A DNA stretch of 53,237 nt from a virus. This document shows, one piece after another, positions 19,698 to 46,653 of this stretch; within the stretch, counting starts at the first letter, position 1; the number at the start of each line of letters is the position of its first letter. The stretch covers positions 1 to 53,237 of the IMG/VR virus record IMGVR_UViG_3300033153_002781; one strand, 5' to 3'. The position numbers were made by a program, and so were the translations under genes. Under the pieces are notes generated by a model. It was not told the origin of the DNA, searched no databases, and saw nothing but the letters and a program-made list of their open reading frames with translations.

Positions 19698-19861
19698 TTG
19701 TGATTAGAGAAGAGGTTGTATTGGTGTGTGGTTCACTTGGTGATTGCTACGGTGAATGCGATTTGGTGTTGGCTATAATCGAACGAGTCACAAGGGATGG
19801 ATTGAACTTGACCGTCAGGTGTGAGGATGCTTGGAAAAGTGAACGGGTGTGGCTTGAATGA
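19694..19861 (+). CDS. Small protein, GTG start, coupled on both sides
   Basis: 55 aa starting GTG 19694 (GTGA overlap with the previous stop) and ending TGA overlapping the next ATG (ATGA at 19858-19861). It has four cysteines (VCGSLGDCYGECD, then VRCEDAW) and beta-like hydrophobic spacing. The double overlap is strong support that it is real. No family recognised. Confidence 0.6.
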   Translation: MIVIREEVVLVCGSLGDCYGECDLVLAIIERVTRDGLNLTVRCEDAWKSERVWLE

Positions 19862-22352: not shown

Positions 22353-22423
22353 TTGCGACCCTTGGATTTGAACCAAGCTTGTCAGGTCATGAGCCTGAAA
22401 TGTTACCGCTACACTAGGTCGCA
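22353..22423 (-). tRNA. tRNA-Met (anticodon CAT; elongator or Ile2 not distinguishable)
   Basis: Clean cloverleaf: acceptor TGCGACC/GGTCGCA with discriminator A, D-arm GTGT with loop AGCGGTA, anticodon stem TCAGG/CCTGA with loop CTCATGA, variable CAAG, T-arm CTTGG-TTCAAAT-CCAAG. No intron. The anticodon stem lacks the three G-C pairs of initiator tRNA, so it is an elongator, or an Ile2 tRNA if C34 is modified. U1-A72 as in the tRNA-Gln. Confidence 0.85.
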
Positions 22424-25555: not shown

Positions 25556-25612
25556 TTCGTATTACATCACTGGCGTAACACATTAAGATATGATATAACA
25601 ATGGTGATAGTT

Positions 25613-26176
25613 ATGGTGCAAAAACTACCGATGACATCAGAGGATCTGGATAGATTAGAGGTGATAGCAATGACTTATCCAAAGGATAGTGATCATTATA
25701 GAGTATTCATGATACTAAGATATACTGGAATGCATGTATGTTGTCTATATAGAAAGGAATCCCGAATTAAAGAGATACAAAGAAACGGACACACTCACAT
25801 CAAATGGTTTCGACCAATGAAGGGAAAGATCAAAGGTGTTAAGAATCTATGGGAGATATTGCCTGGAATTATCAAGCACAATAAGATAGATTTCAATGTG
25901 GAAGAATATTATAACCAGATGGCCAATAGAAGACGCAAAACTGGAAACATGTATTTCTACAGAATCATAAAGGAAATAGGTGATAGGGGGGGATTATCTG
26001 ATATTAGCCCTAACACACTAAGACACTCATTGGCTGTCTATCTCATAGAGGATGTGAGACTATCATATCAGGATGTCGCGGATCTATTAGGCTGTTCAAT
26101 ACAGACATTACATAAGCACTATGCTAAAGTTGGTAAGAAGGCAGTTGATGATAGATTAGTAAAGGCTGGATGGTGA
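25613..26176 (+). CDS. Tyrosine recombinase (integrase-like), degenerate active site
   Basis: 187 aa from ATG 25613 (GGTGAT five bases upstream); ATG 25601 is the alternative. It is a catalytic-domain-only protein. Motif 1 is RYTGMHVCCLYRKES, where families normally have Arg in place of the His after TGM. Motif 2 is SPNTLRHSLAVYLIED: the Arg-His core is present but the leading His is Asn. The later LLGCS has Cys where His is usual; the Tyr nucleophile is in HKHYAKV. Three of the usual catalytic positions are therefore changed. It could be an altered but active recombinase, or inactive. It precedes an HNH gene. Confidence 0.75.
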   Translation: MVQKLPMTSEDLDRLEVIAMTYPKDSDHYRVFMILRYTGMHVCCLYRKESRIKEIQRNGHTHIKWFRPMKGKIKGVKNLWEILPGIIKHNKIDFNVEEYYNQMANRRRKTGNMYFYRIIKEIGDRGGLSDISPNTLRHSLAVYLIEDVRLSYQDVADLLGCSIQTLHKHYAKVGKKAVDDRLVKAGW

Positions 26177-26180
26177 TTGA

Positions 26181-26594
26181 ATGAGATTAAACATAGATCG
26201 ATATAAAGGCTATAGAAGATATAAGTCGGCTGATGTAATCAAAGCATTGGAAGAGATTGGGAGAAGGCTAGAATGTGAATGGTGCGAAAGGAAACGATAT
26301 ATCATCCACCATAAAGATTGTAATCATAACAATAACGATCCGGATAACATCATGCTAATGTGTAAGAGCTGTCATAGCAAATGCCATCTACTATATCCTA
26401 ATTTCAGATACCTCCAAAGAGATGAATTATTGGATATCATTAGAATAGCTAAACACGTTCTTAATGAAAGGATAATCATTGACAGGATTGAGATAACACA
26501 ACCAGATAATTATGATAAGATCGAGGAGGAAGATAATTATACTTATGAGATGGTGAAAGTTGATTATAACAAACACCCATTACCAGAGATATAG
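26181..26594 (+). CDS. HNH endonuclease
   Basis: 137 aa. The HNH core is CEWCERKRYIIHHKDCNHNNNDPDNIMLMCKSCHSKCH (residues about 34-72): two CxxC pairs hold zinc, HH is the catalytic pair and N-N-D-P-x-N the central Asn. The C-terminal half is helical and acidic. Four bases after the integrase stop, so probably co-transcribed. It could be a homing enzyme or function in DNA processing. Confidence 0.85.
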   Translation: MRLNIDRYKGYRRYKSADVIKALEEIGRRLECEWCERKRYIIHHKDCNHNNNDPDNIMLMCKSCHSKCHLLYPNFRYLQRDELLDIIRIAKHVLNERIIIDRIEITQPDNYDKIEEEDNYTYEMVKVDYNKHPLPEI

Positions 26595-33671: not shown

Positions 33672-34066
33672 TAAGAATCACTGTAACGGGGGACACCTAT
33701 CCTATCAGGAAACGCCTGAAGGATGGCCATTTCAAATGGGCAAAGGATTTCAAGGCGTGGTATAGGGTTGTGGGCGAAGGCTCTTTAAACGCTACCCTAG
33801 AGGCACTGAGGCCAATGAGATCATGGGTTGACCAATCATATCCTGTAGTGGTATGTAAACTAGAAGCCATCGGTGTCGATGGAAAGAAGATGAGTGATAA
33901 GTCCTGTGCTATTAAGCTCAGGCCAGAGGGTGAATTGGGAGGGACTAACTTCTTAGAACTGTTTCAAAAGGAAGTTGATGTTCGATTATCACCAAATGAT
34001 TGTTCCCCTTCCACACCTGACTCTGAAAAGAAAGAGAAGAAATATGATTGGGATGGATTCTATTGA
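33668..34066 (+). CDS. Protein with an N-terminal KTFKAWYR-type domain
   Basis: 132 aa. ITVTGDTYPIRKRLKDGHFKWAKDFKAWYRVV resembles the short DUF5710-like module (G-x-T-Y-P-x-R-x-x-L-K ... KAWY) found in phage and plasmid proteins. The C-terminus is acidic and low-complexity (EKKEKKYDWDG). Function unknown. Confidence 0.55.
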   Translation: MIRITVTGDTYPIRKRLKDGHFKWAKDFKAWYRVVGEGSLNATLEALRPMRSWVDQSYPVVVCKLEAIGVDGKKMSDKSCAIKLRPEGELGGTNFLELFQKEVDVRLSPNDCSPSTPDSEKKEKKYDWDGFY

Positions 34067-34911
34067 GTAATCAATTAACATTAGATGGTGGAACCACGAC
34101 AGATGAATTTGAAAAATACTTACTGAAAATAGCCAGAGTATATGGTCTTGAAAATGTTGTTTTCGGATGTTCTTTCGGTGATGATAGTGTAATGTTAACT
34201 GATAAAGCTGTAGAAATGTTTGGATCGGATATTTGTGTAATCTTTGAAAATACACATATTCAATTTGGTGAAACATATAAATACGGTAGCAAAATGAGAG
34301 AATACTGGGGTTTGACTAATTATCATGAAACACAACCAGATGAGAATTTCATTGATATCACAAACAGAATAGGGTTGCATGGCATAGCAAAGAACAAAAT
34401 GATATGCTGTAGTGGATTGAAAAACGAACCTCTGGCAAAGTGGATGAAGGCCAATAAAAAGAAGTGTACTATTACTGGTTTAAGGCGTTCTGAAGCAAGA
34501 CGAAATAACTGTTATTCAATGATCAATCACCATGAAAAGAGAGACATATGGTATGCTTCACCTATGCTGTATTTGACTGATTATGATGTGCAGGATTATT
34601 ATGATTCAACAGGAATACCAAAGCACCCACTTTATTTAGAGCCATATTTTGCGGATAGAACTGGCTGTGCACCATGTCCAATGACATTGAAATTACAATG
34701 CTATGGAAAACACAACAGTTATTATGATTGGCTGAAAGAACATTTTCCAAGATGGTATAAATTCGCTTGGATATGTCAGAAACGATTTTACGAAAAGAAA
34801 TGTTCTGGGGGGGGGGATATGAGAGGATATGGGACACATATATATCGGCATGAATGGGAGTGGCCGTTCCCAACAATAGAACAAAAAGAAATTCCAGACG
34901 GTGGTAAATAA
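34063..34911 (+). CDS. PAPS-reductase-family protein with altered PP-loop
   Basis: 282 aa from TTG 34063 (TTGA overlap); TTG 34048 is the alternative. The PP-loop reads CSFGDDSVML where the family has SGGKDS-x-x-x-L, so the catalytic-looking Lys is missing. Other family parts are present: DICVIFENTHIQFGETYKY (strand and ENT-motif), TGLRRSEARRN (R-x-x-E-S-x-x-R-type motif) and RTGCAPCPM near the end, which holds cysteines. Such proteins act in sulfate assimilation, tRNA or DNA sulfur chemistry (DndC-like). The substitution makes function uncertain. An in-frame run of ten G lies at 34807-34816. Confidence 0.75.
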   Translation: MSNQLTLDGGTTTDEFEKYLLKIARVYGLENVVFGCSFGDDSVMLTDKAVEMFGSDICVIFENTHIQFGETYKYGSKMREYWGLTNYHETQPDENFIDITNRIGLHGIAKNKMICCSGLKNEPLAKWMKANKKKCTITGLRRSEARRNNCYSMINHHEKRDIWYASPMLYLTDYDVQDYYDSTGIPKHPLYLEPYFADRTGCAPCPMTLKLQCYGKHNSYYDWLKEHFPRWYKFAWICQKRFYEKKCSGGGDMRGYGTHIYRHEWEWPFPTIEQKEIPDGGK

Positions 34912-35688: not shown

Positions 35689-36045
35689 ATGCCAGAACAA
35701 ATGCTACAGATAACTGATGATGGTGAAGTGATAAAGCTAATGGAGAATCTGTTTCCAGACTTCAAAGGGAGGATAAAGAGAGTGAAGTGCATGATACCAG
35801 GCGTGTGTTATGATACACCACCATCGAATGTCTCTGTTGATGTCCTTAATGTAATGGTGGAATTACATGATGATGATCCGCGAATGGCTGAGATAGAAAT
35901 AGAGATGGAGGAAGAACAGGAAAGGCTAAAGGCAGAGGCTGAATCTGATGCTATAGATGAAGCAGAACATCAGGCCGAGATGGATGCGGCTGGTGATGAG
36001 GAGAGAGCTAGGCAGTATGAAGAAGATGGGGAGATGTTCACATGA
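35689..36045 (+). CDS. Acidic helical protein
   Basis: 118 aa from ATG 35689 with GAGGAG 7 bases upstream (ATG 35674 is the alternative). The C-terminal half is a long Glu-rich helix (MAEIEIEMEEEQERLKAEAESDAIDEAEHQAEMD). Overlaps the next start. No family recognised; possibly a DNA-mimic-like protein, a weak inference. Confidence 0.6.
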   Translation: MPEQMLQITDDGEVIKLMENLFPDFKGRIKRVKCMIPGVCYDTPPSNVSVDVLNVMVELHDDDPRMAEIEIEMEEEQERLKAEAESDAIDEAEHQAEMDAAGDEERARQYEEDGEMFT

Positions 36046-36929
36046 AAGGCTACAAGATGGTCAGAGATAATTACACCGCGTTCTATGATATGACAACGAA
36101 ATACACAGTTGGTGAAACAATTGAAATCAAGAATCCAGCACCAGCAAGCGAAGGCAAATATGCAAGTGGATTACATATCTCTAAAGAACCTCACAATCCT
36201 CTTAATTACAATGCTAAATACCCTTGGAGATTATTGGAGGTATCATACAATAAAAAAGATATCATCTTTGAAAGCGATGATAAGATAAGGGTTAGGAAAC
36301 TGAAGGTAATTAAGGAACTCGAACCTTGGGAAATCGGATTGCCGGATTCCAAGCGTGTCTTTGATAAAATAGCTGCCACATCCGAGATAAGAATGAGAGC
36401 ACAGACTGAAGCTAGAAAGAAGAAAATAGAAAAACTTGTAGGACAACATGTAGCTAGATTGAACCGTTACTATGGTGAACAAAAGGTCATTCTTAAAGGT
36501 GTCAGATTCTACACTATAAAAGAATGGGCTAGTGTCTGGGCTAGTGTCTGGGATAGTGTCTGGGATAGTGTCAGGGCTAGTGTCAGGGATAGTGTCTGGG
36601 CTAGTGTCAGGGATAGTGTCTGGGCTAGTGTCTGGGATAGTGTCTGGGCTAGTGTCTGGGATAGTGTCAGGGCTAGTGTCAGGGCTAGTGTCAGGGCTAG
36701 TGTCAGGGCTAGTGTCAGGGATAGTGTCAGGGATAGTGTCTGGGCTAGTGTCAGGGCTAGTGTCTGGGATAGTGTCTGGGCTAGTGTCTGGACATCTTTC
36801 GTAGAGAAAGATGCTTCTAACCCATTTTTACCATTGCAGAAAATATGTGAAACTGGTGGTGTGTTCTATGGCATTGACAAAGATGGGATTGCCCACATAA
36901 TCATGCCTGACAAATCGGAGGTGAATTAG
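36042..36929 (+). CDS. Protein with a four-residue tandem repeat (DUF7666-like start)
   Basis: 295 aa. The N-terminal 95 residues (GYKMVRDNYTAFYDMTTKYTVGETIEI, KYASGLHISKEPHNPLNY, WRLLEVSYNKKDIIFESDDKIRVRKLKVIKEL) resemble the DUF7666-type domain of phage proteins. Residues about 163-250 are 22 copies of [AD]-S-V-[WR], from a 12-bp tandem repeat, followed by a 45-residue C-terminal domain (FYGIDKDGIAHIIMPDKSEVN). The repeat would form a regular rod or beta-solenoid-like surface with alternating Trp and Arg. Its job is unknown; repeat number is likely to change between relatives. Confidence 0.75.
   Translation: MKGYKMVRDNYTAFYDMTTKYTVGETIEIKNPAPASEGKYASGLHISKEPHNPLNYNAKYPWRLLEVSYNKKDIIFESDDKIRVRKLKVIKELEPWEIGLPDSKRVFDKIAATSEIRMRAQTEARKKKIEKLVGQHVARLNRYYGEQKVILKGVRFYTIKEWASVWASVWDSVWDSVRASVRDSVWASVRDSVWASVWDSVWASVWDSVRASVRASVRASVRASVRDSVRDSVWASVRASVWDSVWASVWTSFVEKDASNPFLPLQKICETGGVFYGIDKDGIAHIIMPDKSEVN
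36528..36791 (+). repeat. 12-bp tandem repeat, 22 units
   Basis: 264 bases made of units that differ only at two sites: the first codon is GCT or GAT (Ala/Asp), the fourth is TGG or AGG (Trp/Arg); the middle AGT GTC is constant. All 22 units are in frame. The binary variation at exactly two positions, with nothing else changed, suggests recent expansion with selection or recombination among units. Confidence 0.95.
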
Positions 36930-44000: not shown

Positions 44001-44543
44001 ATGGTACAGAAACCCTACTATCGTAATGTCTGGGCACTGGGTCCACCCAACGCTAACTATCCTGGCGCATTCCCAAGAGGTCTTATCAACATGATTAAGA
44101 AGAAATGGTGGGGGAAAGACAGGCTATGGCTATTCTCTGGAAGTCATAAAGATGAGCTCGGAATAACAGTTGATATAAATCCTGCTGCTAATCCGACCCA
44201 TGTAGCTGATTGTGCTGACCTTTCATTTCTGGAATCGGAATCATTTGATTTTGTGTTTGCAGATCCGCCATATTCAGAAGCCGAAGCTAGAGATTTGTAT
44301 GATTTGCCTTACTTCAACATGGTAAAAACATTGAATGAGATGGCTAGAGTTTGTAAATCTGGAGGTCATGTATTGTTTTTGCATAGGCTTGTTCCAGCAG
44401 TTCATCCACATCTAAGTGATGAGTTTAAAAGATTGAAGATAGCGGGTGTTGTAGGTGTCTATACCATTGCTGGATTCTCTAATATGCGGGCCCTAACGGT
44501 TTGGAGAAAGTTAGAATCATTGGAGGGGTTTGGTGATGAATAG
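44001..44543 (+). CDS. DNA methyltransferase (DPPY type, likely N6-adenine)
   Basis: 180 aa. FVFADPPYSEAEA at about residue 90 is motif IV (DPPY). GITVDINPAANPTHVADCADLSF provides the SAM-binding strand region (acidic D at strand end). KSGGHVLFLHRLVPAV follows as motif VI-like. Compact for an amino methyltransferase. It could modify viral DNA for evading host restriction. Overlaps the next start (ATGAATAG). Confidence 0.8.
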   Translation: MVQKPYYRNVWALGPPNANYPGAFPRGLINMIKKKWWGKDRLWLFSGSHKDELGITVDINPAANPTHVADCADLSFLESESFDFVFADPPYSEAEARDLYDLPYFNMVKTLNEMARVCKSGGHVLFLHRLVPAVHPHLSDEFKRLKIAGVVGVYTIAGFSNMRALTVWRKLESLEGFGDE

Positions 44544-44808
44544 CGATGACAAAAAGAGCCTATTAGCAATGTGTAAAACGTGCGCAATTATGACAAGCAC
44601 TGGCAATACATTAAGGTTGCAGATAGAAGATATAATCACATACCATTTAGGATATGATAACTTTGAAGATTTCGCTAAGAAGGTACAATATGGCGAGGAT
44701 AGCTCCGATTGGTTGATAGATAAACTCTCAGAGGGGAACTTTACTATGAAAGATTTGAATATGGTAATCAGTGAATTCAAAATGAAAATCAATAGGAGTA
44801 AAGATTGA
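44536..44808 (+). CDS. Small helical protein, unknown
   Basis: 90 aa from ATG 44536 (overlapping TAG). CKTCAIM at residue 13, then helical and acidic (FEDFAKKVQYGEDSSDWLIDKL). Stop overlaps the start of the methyltransferase remnant. Not recognised. Confidence 0.55.
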   Translation: MNSDDKKSLLAMCKTCAIMTSTGNTLRLQIEDIITYHLGYDNFEDFAKKVQYGEDSSDWLIDKLSEGNFTMKDLNMVISEFKMKINRSKD

Positions 44809-44864
44809 TGAAAAGAGTATTGAATTTGTATGCTACTAAAGTTTTAAATATGTACGATACATAA
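44808..44864 (+). pseudogene. Probable remnant of the C5-methyltransferase start
   Basis: An 18-codon frame, Met-Lys-Arg-Val-Leu-Asn-Leu-Tyr-Ala..., opens at ATG 44808 on the previous stop. Lys-x-x-Leu-Asn-Leu-Tyr is the same opening as the methyltransferase after the HNH gene (Leu-Lys-Ile-Leu-Asn-Leu-Tyr-Ser-Gly), and phage C5-methyltransferases usually begin Met-Lys-Ile-Leu-Asn-Leu-Tyr. It reads as the 5' end left behind when the HNH gene was inserted. It is short, so chance similarity is possible. Confidence 0.45.
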
Positions 44865-44872
44865 GGTGTCTT

Positions 44873-45364
44873 ATGAAATATGATGGTAGGAATGTCTATT
44901 TTGACAAGAAAGGATACCCTTTGGTGTGGATAAATGGTAAAGATAAAAAGGTTCATATATTAGAATGGGAAAAATACAATGGCAAAAAACCTGAAGGGAT
45001 GCAAATACATCATAAAGATAATGATAAAAGCAATTGGAATATATGCAATCTTGTATTAGTAACACAATCAGATCATTTTAGAATACACGCGGGATGGGAA
45101 AGGCAAGGCAACGTTTGGATTAAAAAGCCTTGTAAAGATTGTAAACAATTATTACCATTAGATAATTTTTATCAAAGAAAAGGATTGACACCTTCACATA
45201 TGTGTATAGAATGTACAAAAAAATATTATAAAAATAAATTAATAAACGATCCTGAACATAGAGAGAAAAAAAGGTTATATTTAAAAGATTATTATAAAAA
45301 GAACAAGGAAGAAATTTTAAGAAAAGAAAAAGAAAAAAGGAGGGAATTGAAATTAAAAAACTGA
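44873..45364 (+). CDS. HNH homing-type endonuclease
   Basis: 163 aa. HNH core KKPEGMQIHHKDNDKSNWNICNLVLVTQSDHFRIHA at residues 40-80 (HH, N...N). A zinc region follows: CKDCKQLLPLDNFYQRKGLTPSHMCIECTKKYYK. The last 50 residues are a Lys/Glu helix. Codon usage is visibly more A-rich than its neighbours, and a TATA-like TTTTAAATA lies 27 bases before the ATG. It sits between the two parts of a methyltransferase start, so it is probably a mobile insertion. Its TGA is directly preceded by the slippery heptamer at 45355. Confidence 0.8.
   Translation: MKYDGRNVYFDKKGYPLVWINGKDKKVHILEWEKYNGKKPEGMQIHHKDNDKSNWNICNLVLVTQSDHFRIHAGWERQGNVWIKKPCKDCKQLLPLDNFYQRKGLTPSHMCIECTKKYYKNKLINDPEHREKKRLYLKDYYKKNKEEILRKEKEKRRELKLKN
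45338..45361 (+). other. Putative -1 frameshift site with internal Shine-Dalgarno
   Basis: AGGAGG (45338-45343) is followed after 11 bases by A AAA AAC (45355-45361) and TGA. In phase codons are TTA AAA AAC TGA; slipping back one base enters the C5-methyltransferase frame at CTG. The E. coli dnaX signal uses a Shine-Dalgarno box at nearly the same distance before A AAA AAG. The same AGGAGG could instead start translation at ATT 45352, 8 bases on. Confidence 0.6.
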
Positions 45365-45975
45365 AAATTCTTAATCTTTATTCTGGATTAGGCGGCAATC
45401 GTAAGCTGTGGGAAGATGTAGAGGTAACAGCCATAGAATTAGGTCCTAAGATTGCAGCCATCTACCAAGACTTCTTTCCAGATGATACGGTGATAGTAGC
45501 CGATGCTCATCAGTACCTGTTGGACCACTATGATGATGGATGGGATTTCATCTGGTCAAGTCCACCATGTCCTACACATAGTAGACTAGTTTTATCTAAT
45601 GTAGGTAAAAACAATTACAATTTCAAATATCCGGATATGTCTCTCTATCAAGAGATATTAATCCTTAGAACATTTTCAAAAAGTAAGTATTGTATTGAGA
45701 ATGTGATAACATATTATGATCCATTAATAGAGCCTAGACATATAAGTAATCATTATTTTTGGTCTAATTTTTATATTTCTGATTTAGATATTGGTAATAA
45801 AGGTCATCGTGATGGGGATATTAAATCATTACAGGAACTTACTGGTTTTGATCTGACAGGATACGACATCCCAGATAAGCGTAAACTGTTAAGGAATTGT
45901 GTCAACCCTAAACTCGGTAAGCATGTCTTTGATTGTGCATTCAAGGTTAAGCAACAAACTCTTTTTGATGGTTGA
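45352..45975 (+). CDS. C5-cytosine DNA methyltransferase
   Basis: About 207 aa. Motif I KILNLYSGLGGNRKLWEDV and ELGPKIA, motif IV SSPPCPTHSR (the Cys nucleophile in PPC), motif VI YCIENV, and a late RNCVNPKLGKHVFD. No ATG, GTG or TTG lies in this frame between an upstream stop near 45290 and motif I; the first canonical start (GTG 45490) would remove motif I and the SAM site. Expression must come from -1 frameshifting off the HNH gene, or from a rare start (ATT 45352 or CTG 45361) using AGGAGG. The start given is the ATT. Probably protects viral DNA. Confidence 0.75.
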   Translation: MKKLKILNLYSGLGGNRKLWEDVEVTAIELGPKIAAIYQDFFPDDTVIVADAHQYLLDHYDDGWDFIWSSPPCPTHSRLVLSNVGKNNYNFKYPDMSLYQEILILRTFSKSKYCIENVITYYDPLIEPRHISNHYFWSNFYISDLDIGNKGHRDGDIKSLQELTGFDLTGYDIPDKRKLLRNCVNPKLGKHVFDCAFKVKQQTLFDG

Positions 45976-45989
45976 AATACGAAAGATAA

Positions 45990-46000
45990 TATTATATATA
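45990..46000 (+). promoter_or_regulatory. TATA box, leaderless small gene
   Basis: TATTATATATA is centred about 27 bases before ATG 46022, a spacing that makes the transcript start at the AUG. Confidence 0.55.
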
Positions 46001-46021
46001 GCTAAATACATACATAGGCAC

Positions 46022-46129
46022 ATGAAATTAACATGCCAAAGATGTGAATATGAGTGGGATTACAATGGAAAGTCTAAGTGGTACACATCGTGCCCTAGAT
46101 GCAGAACATCAGTGAAGGTGAAACAATGA
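46022..46129 (+). CDS. 35-residue zinc ribbon, leaderless
   Basis: MKLTCQRCEYEWDYNGKSK then CPRCRTSVKVKQ: CxxC pair 16 residues apart with basic ends. Very similar in plan to the protein at 19548 (CSRCYYEW ... CPKC). Own TATA box; stop overlaps the next gene. Confidence 0.65.
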   Translation: MKLTCQRCEYEWDYNGKSKWYTSCPRCRTSVKVKQ

Positions 46130-46653
46130 ATGCCATTATTGAAGATACTGGGATGTGTATATGTGGCCATCCGAGAAACAAACACAGAGATAAGAAATTA
46201 AGGTCATCATGTAAAAAGTGTAGATGCACATCATATACACCAGCAGTACAGGCTGCTGAAGGATTGATAGCCAAAGAACACGAACCAGAATGTACATGTG
46301 GCCCATGTGCCTGGGAGAGACTAATGAACGCTGAAAGGAATCTCCTATCACTGAAGGGTGAGATTGAACGGCTTGATAAATCTCTTGATCTTGAAATGGA
46401 AGCCTCCACTGAGATGGAAGAAAGGCTGGATACATTTGAGATAGACACTGACAAATCTATCGAGGCCATCCAGAAAAGGCAGAACGAACTTGAAGATTCT
46501 ATCAAAGACCTCAAAGCTAAGATAGATGAAGGCAATAAAATCATTGTAGAGCATCATAATGATAATGAAGCGACTATCAAAGACATTGTTGAATATCTCA
46601 CATCAGCCGGTTATTCGCGTAAGAAGGAACTGATAAAGAAGATGAGTAGGTGA
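46126..46653 (+). CDS. Zinc-finger coiled-coil protein
   Basis: 175 aa from ATG 46126 (ATGA overlap; GGTGA before it). An N-terminal Cys cluster (CICGHPRNKHRDKKLRSSCKKCRC, then CTCGPC) followed by a long heptad-rich helix from about residue 65 to 155 (LKGEIERLDKSLDLEMEASTEMEERL) and a basic end. Probably a dimeric or oligomeric DNA-binding protein; the coiled coil is clear, the target is not. Confidence 0.65.
   Translation: MNAIIEDTGMCICGHPRNKHRDKKLRSSCKKCRCTSYTPAVQAAEGLIAKEHEPECTCGPCAWERLMNAERNLLSLKGEIERLDKSLDLEMEASTEMEERLDTFEIDTDKSIEAIQKRQNELEDSIKDLKAKIDEGNKIIVEHHNDNEATIKDIVEYLTSAGYSRKKELIKKMSR

Follow-up and report, generated by a model that had tools for sequence, protein, structure and literature searches.

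Genes and features at the locus

The window analysed here is a virus record of 53,237 bases. The stretch of interest carries a small gene, an HNH endonuclease gene and a short C5-cytosine methyltransferase (MTase) gene, together with the following features, some of which are assigned by interpretation and are discussed below.

44536–44808, plus strand: small upstream gene; its stop codon TGA (44806–44808) shares one base with the stranded MTase ATG (TGATG)
44808–44864, plus strand: putative stranded original 5' end of the MTase gene, MKRVLNLYA, found by pattern match at 44808
44835–45351, plus strand: putative inserted HNH element, starting after TATGCT and ending at an uncertain point (about 45337 to 45384)
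44873–45364, plus strand: HNH endonuclease gene, 163 aa, matching PF13392 and PHROG HNH families, with relatives in viral loci L026, L027, L040 and L041
45337–45343, plus strand: AAGGAGG, candidate Shine-Dalgarno (SD) sequence of the MTase, inside HNH codons; AGGAGG lies at the same place in L041
45346–45348, plus strand: in-frame ATT, the less favoured start candidate, with an SD spacing of 2, at the codon position of the ATG of locus L147
45352–45354, plus strand: in-frame ATT, the probable MTase start, SD spacing 8
45352–45975, plus strand: short C5-cytosine MTase, 207 aa, matching PF00145 and PHROG 363, with homologues of up to 60% identity
45355–45361, plus strand: heptamer A AAA AAC; in the MTase frame the A-run encodes the K-K of KKLKI
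45361–45364, plus strand: CTGA, an MTase-frame CTG overlapping the HNH stop TGA, at the codon position of most homologues' ATG (MKVLNLY)
45370–45399, plus strand: MTase motif I, LNLYSGLGGN
45556–45570, plus strand: MTase motif IV, SSPPC
45697–45705, plus strand: MTase motif VI, ENV
within 45352–45975, plus strand: MTase motif X-like sequence, LRNCVNPKLGKH

The assignment of the MTase is based on alignment, in which motifs I, IV (PPC) and VI (ENV) occur in order, and on matches to PHROG 363 (2.2e-10) and PF00145 (1.8e-4; 21.5 bits, just under the curated cut-off of 22). The HNH protein has an HNH_3 domain at residues 25–68 (PF13392, 3e-16, 59.2 bits against a cut-off of 24.8), followed by a CxxC...CxxC zinc-finger-like part, and its gene ends in ...TTG AAA TTA AAA AAC TGA. 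A second HNH_3-like gene lies elsewhere in the window (26181–26594), directly 3' of a tyrosine recombinase gene (25601–26176).

A methyltransferase gene without an ordinary start

The open MTase frame extends from 45298 to 45975 and contains no ATG, GTG or TTG before motif I. Its earliest ordinary in-frame start is the GTG at 45490, which lies 3' of motif I, and a gene finder would therefore call the MTase truncated. These features agree with an earlier note on this DNA, which had described complete motifs I, IV and VI, the absence of an ordinary start between the upstream stop and motif I, an HNH gene ending in an in-phase A AAA AAC (45355–45361) directly before TGA (45362–45364), and AGGAGG (45338–45343) 11 nt 5' of the heptamer. 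The sequence observation is thus confirmed, and what follows concerns its explanation.

Homologues of the MTase were gathered from viral contigs by a protein query and by an alignment query, which gave 101 motif-I sites, 90 of them distinct, in homologous viral loci. An ordinary start between the upstream stop and motif I was absent in the window MTase only, that is, in one of the 90 distinct homologues. The earlier note had named homologues with an MTase ATG of their own as what would count against it, and an ATG start is present at 93 of the 101 sites. The commonest homologue start, at 72 of the 101 sites, is an ATG three codons before LNLY (MKVLNLYAGIGG; MKVLNLY). The missing ordinary start is exceptional, beyond chance.

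In one further homologous locus the LNLY codons occur as a tandem duplicate (L157, 2478–2520; KALNLYKALNLYAGIGG) and the only ordinary starts are TTG; this duplication is possibly a scar at the insertion site considered below. Another locus carries two MTase homologues in tandem (L019, 2964–4540).

The stranded 5' end and the putative inserted element

An explanation for the missing start lies at 44808–44864, outside the stretch that the earlier note covered. At 44808 an ATG begins the codons ATG AAA AGA GTA TTG AAT TTG TAT GCT, which are followed by nine non-homologous codons and then by TAA (44862–44864). The encoded MKRVLNLYA is a typical beginning of the MTase family. About 0.1 chance matches to the MTase-beginning pattern are expected per window; two were found, the one at 44808 and an unrelated one at 19858. 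When the stranded 5' end is joined to the GGA at 45385, the product MKRVLNLYAGLGGNRKLWEDVEV is the family consensus N-terminus, like that of intact homologues. Also, the stranded ATG keeps its original operon place, overlapping the stop codon of the preceding gene. The MTase start would then be missing downstream because the original ATG at 44808 was cut off by the insertion of the HNH element.

The sequence between the two parts has a foreign composition, with a G+C content of 27.7% in the element against 39.6% and 41.2% in the flanks, and it has about 70% nucleotide identity to the corresponding sequences of L041, L026 and L027. A scan of genome contigs with the HNH sequence returned only distant matches, of 41–51% over short stretches.

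The same arrangement in other viruses

A search of viral contigs for relatives of the HNH protein showed that the closest of them all precede the same MTase family. In L027, a stranded MKYIDLFA, whose start overlaps the previous stop as ATGA, is followed by the HNH gene and by an MTase beginning (MQKKKKLSILNLYSG) inside the HNH 3' end. In L041/L040, a stranded MKTLNLYA is followed by the HNH gene and by an MTase whose ATG overlaps the HNH stop as ATGA; this ATG is preceded at 8 nt by AGGAGG, which occupies the same place as the AGGAGG of the window. In L026, the HNH gene itself opens with MTase codons (MKILNLYCG), and the MTase beginning MQKKKKLSILNLYSG follows. The architecture is therefore common to the window and three other virus lineages (L026, L027 and L041/L040), and the MTase lies in the −1 frame relative to the HNH gene in the window and in all relatives with this arrangement.

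Over the stretches compared, the viruses that share the HNH gene have nothing else in common except the MTase and a 35%-identical primase. Because the HNH gene is about 70% identical at the DNA level between viruses that share little else, it appears to move. Its distribution is that of a homing element, with one conserved site, one host gene family, little-related genomes and uninterrupted homologues elsewhere. Taken together, the fixed site, this distribution and the foreign composition suggest a mobile element of the homing type whose entry site is the motif-I codons. In L026, the MTase 3' of the HNH element is interrupted in turn, about 96 codons in, by another HNH C-terminal sequence that differs from the first (1199–1591; DHVIPLTKKG...CRSCNSSKGNRIL), which suggests repeated HNH insertion into this MTase gene.

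Probable initiation of the methyltransferase

The 38 genes of the window were scanned for SD matches of at least 4 bases. A match was found in 31 of them, with spacings concentrated at 7–10 nt and a mode of 7–8 nt, and the AAGGAGG before the MTase is among the strongest matches in the window. The ATT at 45352 lies at a spacing of 8, whereas the CTG at 45361 lies at 17, outside the range seen in this virus. By protein alignment, the ATT at 45352 coincides with the start of homologue L015. AAGGAGG, 8 nt and ATT, with no ordinary start, is the sequence arrangement of AUU-initiated genes of the infC, pcnB and cvfC1 type. AUU starts behind strong SD sequences exist; cvfC1 in Staphylococcus aureus is initiated at about 10% of the AUG level, and pcnB in Escherichia coli is likewise cited as having an AUU start (PMC13009471). 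In E. coli, CUG yields about 0.9% (0.86%) of AUG (PMC11497404). Because of the SD spacing, the L041 layout and the relative efficiencies of AUU and CUG, we favour the AUU at 45352, and the MTase is most likely started from this codon behind AAGGAGG.

Several points weigh against this assignment. An in-frame ATT near an SD sequence is not improbable in A+T-rich DNA, and the ATG of L147 lines up with the other ATT, at 45346. Relatives with the same ATT start were sought and none was found. As an initiation codon AUU is weak, and that the host, which is perhaps archaeal, would use it is proposed as a candidate.

The proposed sequence of events is as follows. An HNH homing-type element would have entered the first MTase codons at motif I (after ...LNLYA), stranding the original ATG and first nine codons at 44808, where they overlap the stop of the upstream gene. 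The N-terminus of the downstream MTase (..IKKLKILNLYSGLGGNRK) is rebuilt, and the last HNH codons contain a ribosome-binding-site sequence; the substitute N-terminus may have arrived as part of the element or through recombination with a different MTase gene. The MTase would be translated as a protein of its own in the −1 frame relative to the HNH gene, probably coupled to HNH translation, with the ATT at 45352, 8 nt behind AAGGAGG, read by the initiator tRNA. The weak start codon would lower MTase output, and the HNH enzyme would spread by cutting intact MTase genes at motif I. Homing of the element is inferred from its distribution. We consider it probable, although well short of certain, that an HNH insertion at the motif-I codons displaced the start and that the MTase is now made from the ATT at 45352.

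Alternative explanations

The start may instead have been lost recently by an ATG-to-ATT mutation, or misread through a base-call or assembly error, in which case the gene would be silent or ordinary. The junction is known from a single contig. An exact 26-mer search of viral contigs found no second assembly of it, and two sibling contigs with an identical terminase (G001 and G002) do not include this stretch. An ordinary start is present in 89 of the 90 distinct homologues, and the window has SD-8-ATT where L041 has SD-8-ATG. However, the MTase is otherwise undamaged, with a frame of 207 codons and conserved motifs, and its SD sequence is intact as well, which leaves such a loss or error unlikely. 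An indel in the A-run was considered separately as the cause of the missing start and was rejected; one added A would fuse HNH and MTase and would not create an ATG.

Termination-reinitiation at CTGA, by which ribosomes ending the HNH gene at the TGA at 45362 would restart at the overlapping CTG at 45361, draws on two positional correspondences: in alignment this CTG stands at the position of the start used most often by the homologues (72 of 101 sites), and the window's CTGA corresponds to the ATGA overlap of L041. The SD spacing of 17, outside the spacing of this virus, and the CUG yield in E. coli, about 0.9% of AUG (PMC11497404), nevertheless make restarting here improbable.

We would give about the same small chance to a programmed −1 frameshift at A AAA AAC, aided by AGGAGG and yielding an HNH-MTase fusion, which the earlier note had preferred. 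The heptamer is in phase directly before TGA with the MTase in the −1 frame and AGGAGG 11 nt 5', so that a heptamer and an upstream SD-like sequence are both in place; A_AAA_AAC is given as the g-t shift site of the archaeal virus HCTV-2, although the same source describes it as far less prone to shifting in E. coli than A_AAA_AAG (PMC5009743). In addition, A AAA AAA occurs close to the end of the HNH gene in L026 and L027, whose MTases are also in the −1 frame, and some HNH-MTase fusion product is possible given these sequences. The heptamer is, however, expected from composition. An in-frame A AAA AAN occurred in 92% of codon shuffles of the HNH gene, the shuffles held a mean of 5.0 X XXY YYZ heptamers against four observed, and 20% of them had one within the last 10 codons. 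Structure 3' of the heptamer was not significant against shuffles (z −0.23 and −0.85). The A-run also codes for K-K-L in the MTase frame, and the same A6CT run (AAAAAACT) is found in L147, which has a normal ATG.

Comparison with related viruses for spacing, a check that the earlier note had proposed, divides its two readings. The AGGAGG-8 nt-ATG of L041 matches the SD-8-ATT of the window, whereas L041 has no heptamer near its HNH end despite having AGGAGG, and the shift site is thus not conserved. Further, L026, L027 and L041, which have the same HNH-MTase junction, each have an MTase ATG of their own. With the heptamer at chance level, no downstream structure and relatives that have an ATG, the frameshift is unsupported, and the rare ATT start behind AGGAGG, which the note had offered second, is the better of the two.

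Finally, a self-splicing intron joining MKRVLNLYA to GLGGNRK is very improbable: the joined flanks do give a perfect MTase start in the window, but the HNH ORF takes up all but about 58 nt of the 550-nt insert, motif I is preceded by a complete second N-terminus (KILNLYSG) that splicing would not need, no Rfam group I or II intron match was found in 44300–46200 at E up to 5, and no Rfam intron reached the gathering threshold in the window, L026 or L027.

The virus and its host

An archaeal origin was an assumption of the earlier note, and the host is perhaps archaeal. The terminase has only 26–28% identical relatives, in genomes of one archaeal phylum; the best match of the primase is a Halorubrum tailed virus (28%), and the portal is closest to those of Bacillus phages (about 30%). 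A single tRNA gene with anticodon CAT lies on the minus strand at 22353–22423. Archaeal initiator tRNAs have an A1-U72 pair; the tRNA of the window starts with G and therefore does not resemble one. Other genes include a PAPS-reductase-like gene (34048–34911; PF01507) and a gene for a protein with a long tandem VWASV/VRDSV repeat (36042–36929), in which an overlapping frame is also open as a repeat.

Relation to known systems

Among published cases, the closest is the ShiLan element, in which an HNH gene lies concealed within an actinophage methylase in a different reading frame (PMC11855218). By architecture the two are alike, with an HNH protein with zinc-finger-like parts at conserved codons of a phage DNA methylase; ShiLan likewise has a patchy distribution and no intron or intein signature (PMC11855218). 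However, the methylase frame remains open across the ShiLan insert, whereas in the window the frame is closed (the TAA ends at 44864 and the MTase frame opens at 45298), a stop cuts off the original start, and the new start lies at the 3' end of the element. Phages Sashimi and Tiff81 also have an HNH gene immediately 5' of a DNA methylase, as in the window (PMC11855218), but no stranded methylase 5' end is reported for them and their annotated methylase starts align normally.

In the mob and seg insertions of T-even phages (mobA in gene 60, mobE in Aeh1 nrdA), an HNH-type endonuclease similarly lies in a part of a host gene that is critical for function, and overlapping starts and stops suggest translational coupling, as here (PMC2988022). 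Those insertions split a protein into two working halves, whereas in the window nine codons are stranded, the N-terminus appears rebuilt and one complete protein is kept. The short phage C5 MTases of PHROG 363 (Vibrio phages 1.182.O and 1.082.O, Gordonia phage Margaret) are about 205 aa long and 47–49% identical to the window MTase; unlike the window, the viral-contig homologues have an ordinary start. The dnaX-type −1 frameshift and the g-t frameshift of archaeal tailed viruses share with the window a slippery A-heptamer and an upstream SD-like motif (PMC5009743), but the window differs from them in having neither downstream structure nor a conserved heptamer, and in having relatives with an ATG.

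The variant feature here, relative to ShiLan and the T4 mob/seg insertions, is a displaced 5' end together with a substitute start. A literature search for mitochondrial elements that displace the ends of host genes found nothing usable; Allomyces atp6 is said to be a case in that connection.

Significance

Homing elements are usually thought to leave the host gene functional, since they are spliced out, lie between genes or divide it into two working parts. The HNH element described here appears instead to replace the 5' end of its host gene together with the start signal, at the same codons in four virus lineages, one of which was left with a non-standard start codon. There may be a recurrent class of HNH homing elements that targets the motif-I codons of viral C5-methyltransferases, strands the start, brings a ribosome-binding site in its own last codons and makes translation of the host gene depend on the gene of the element, here via AUU; we propose this class tentatively, at slightly less than even chances. 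The locus is a natural test case for how a gene can persist once its start codon has gone. Should the host be archaeal and this reading true, it would provide a case of an SD-driven AUU start in an archaeal virus.
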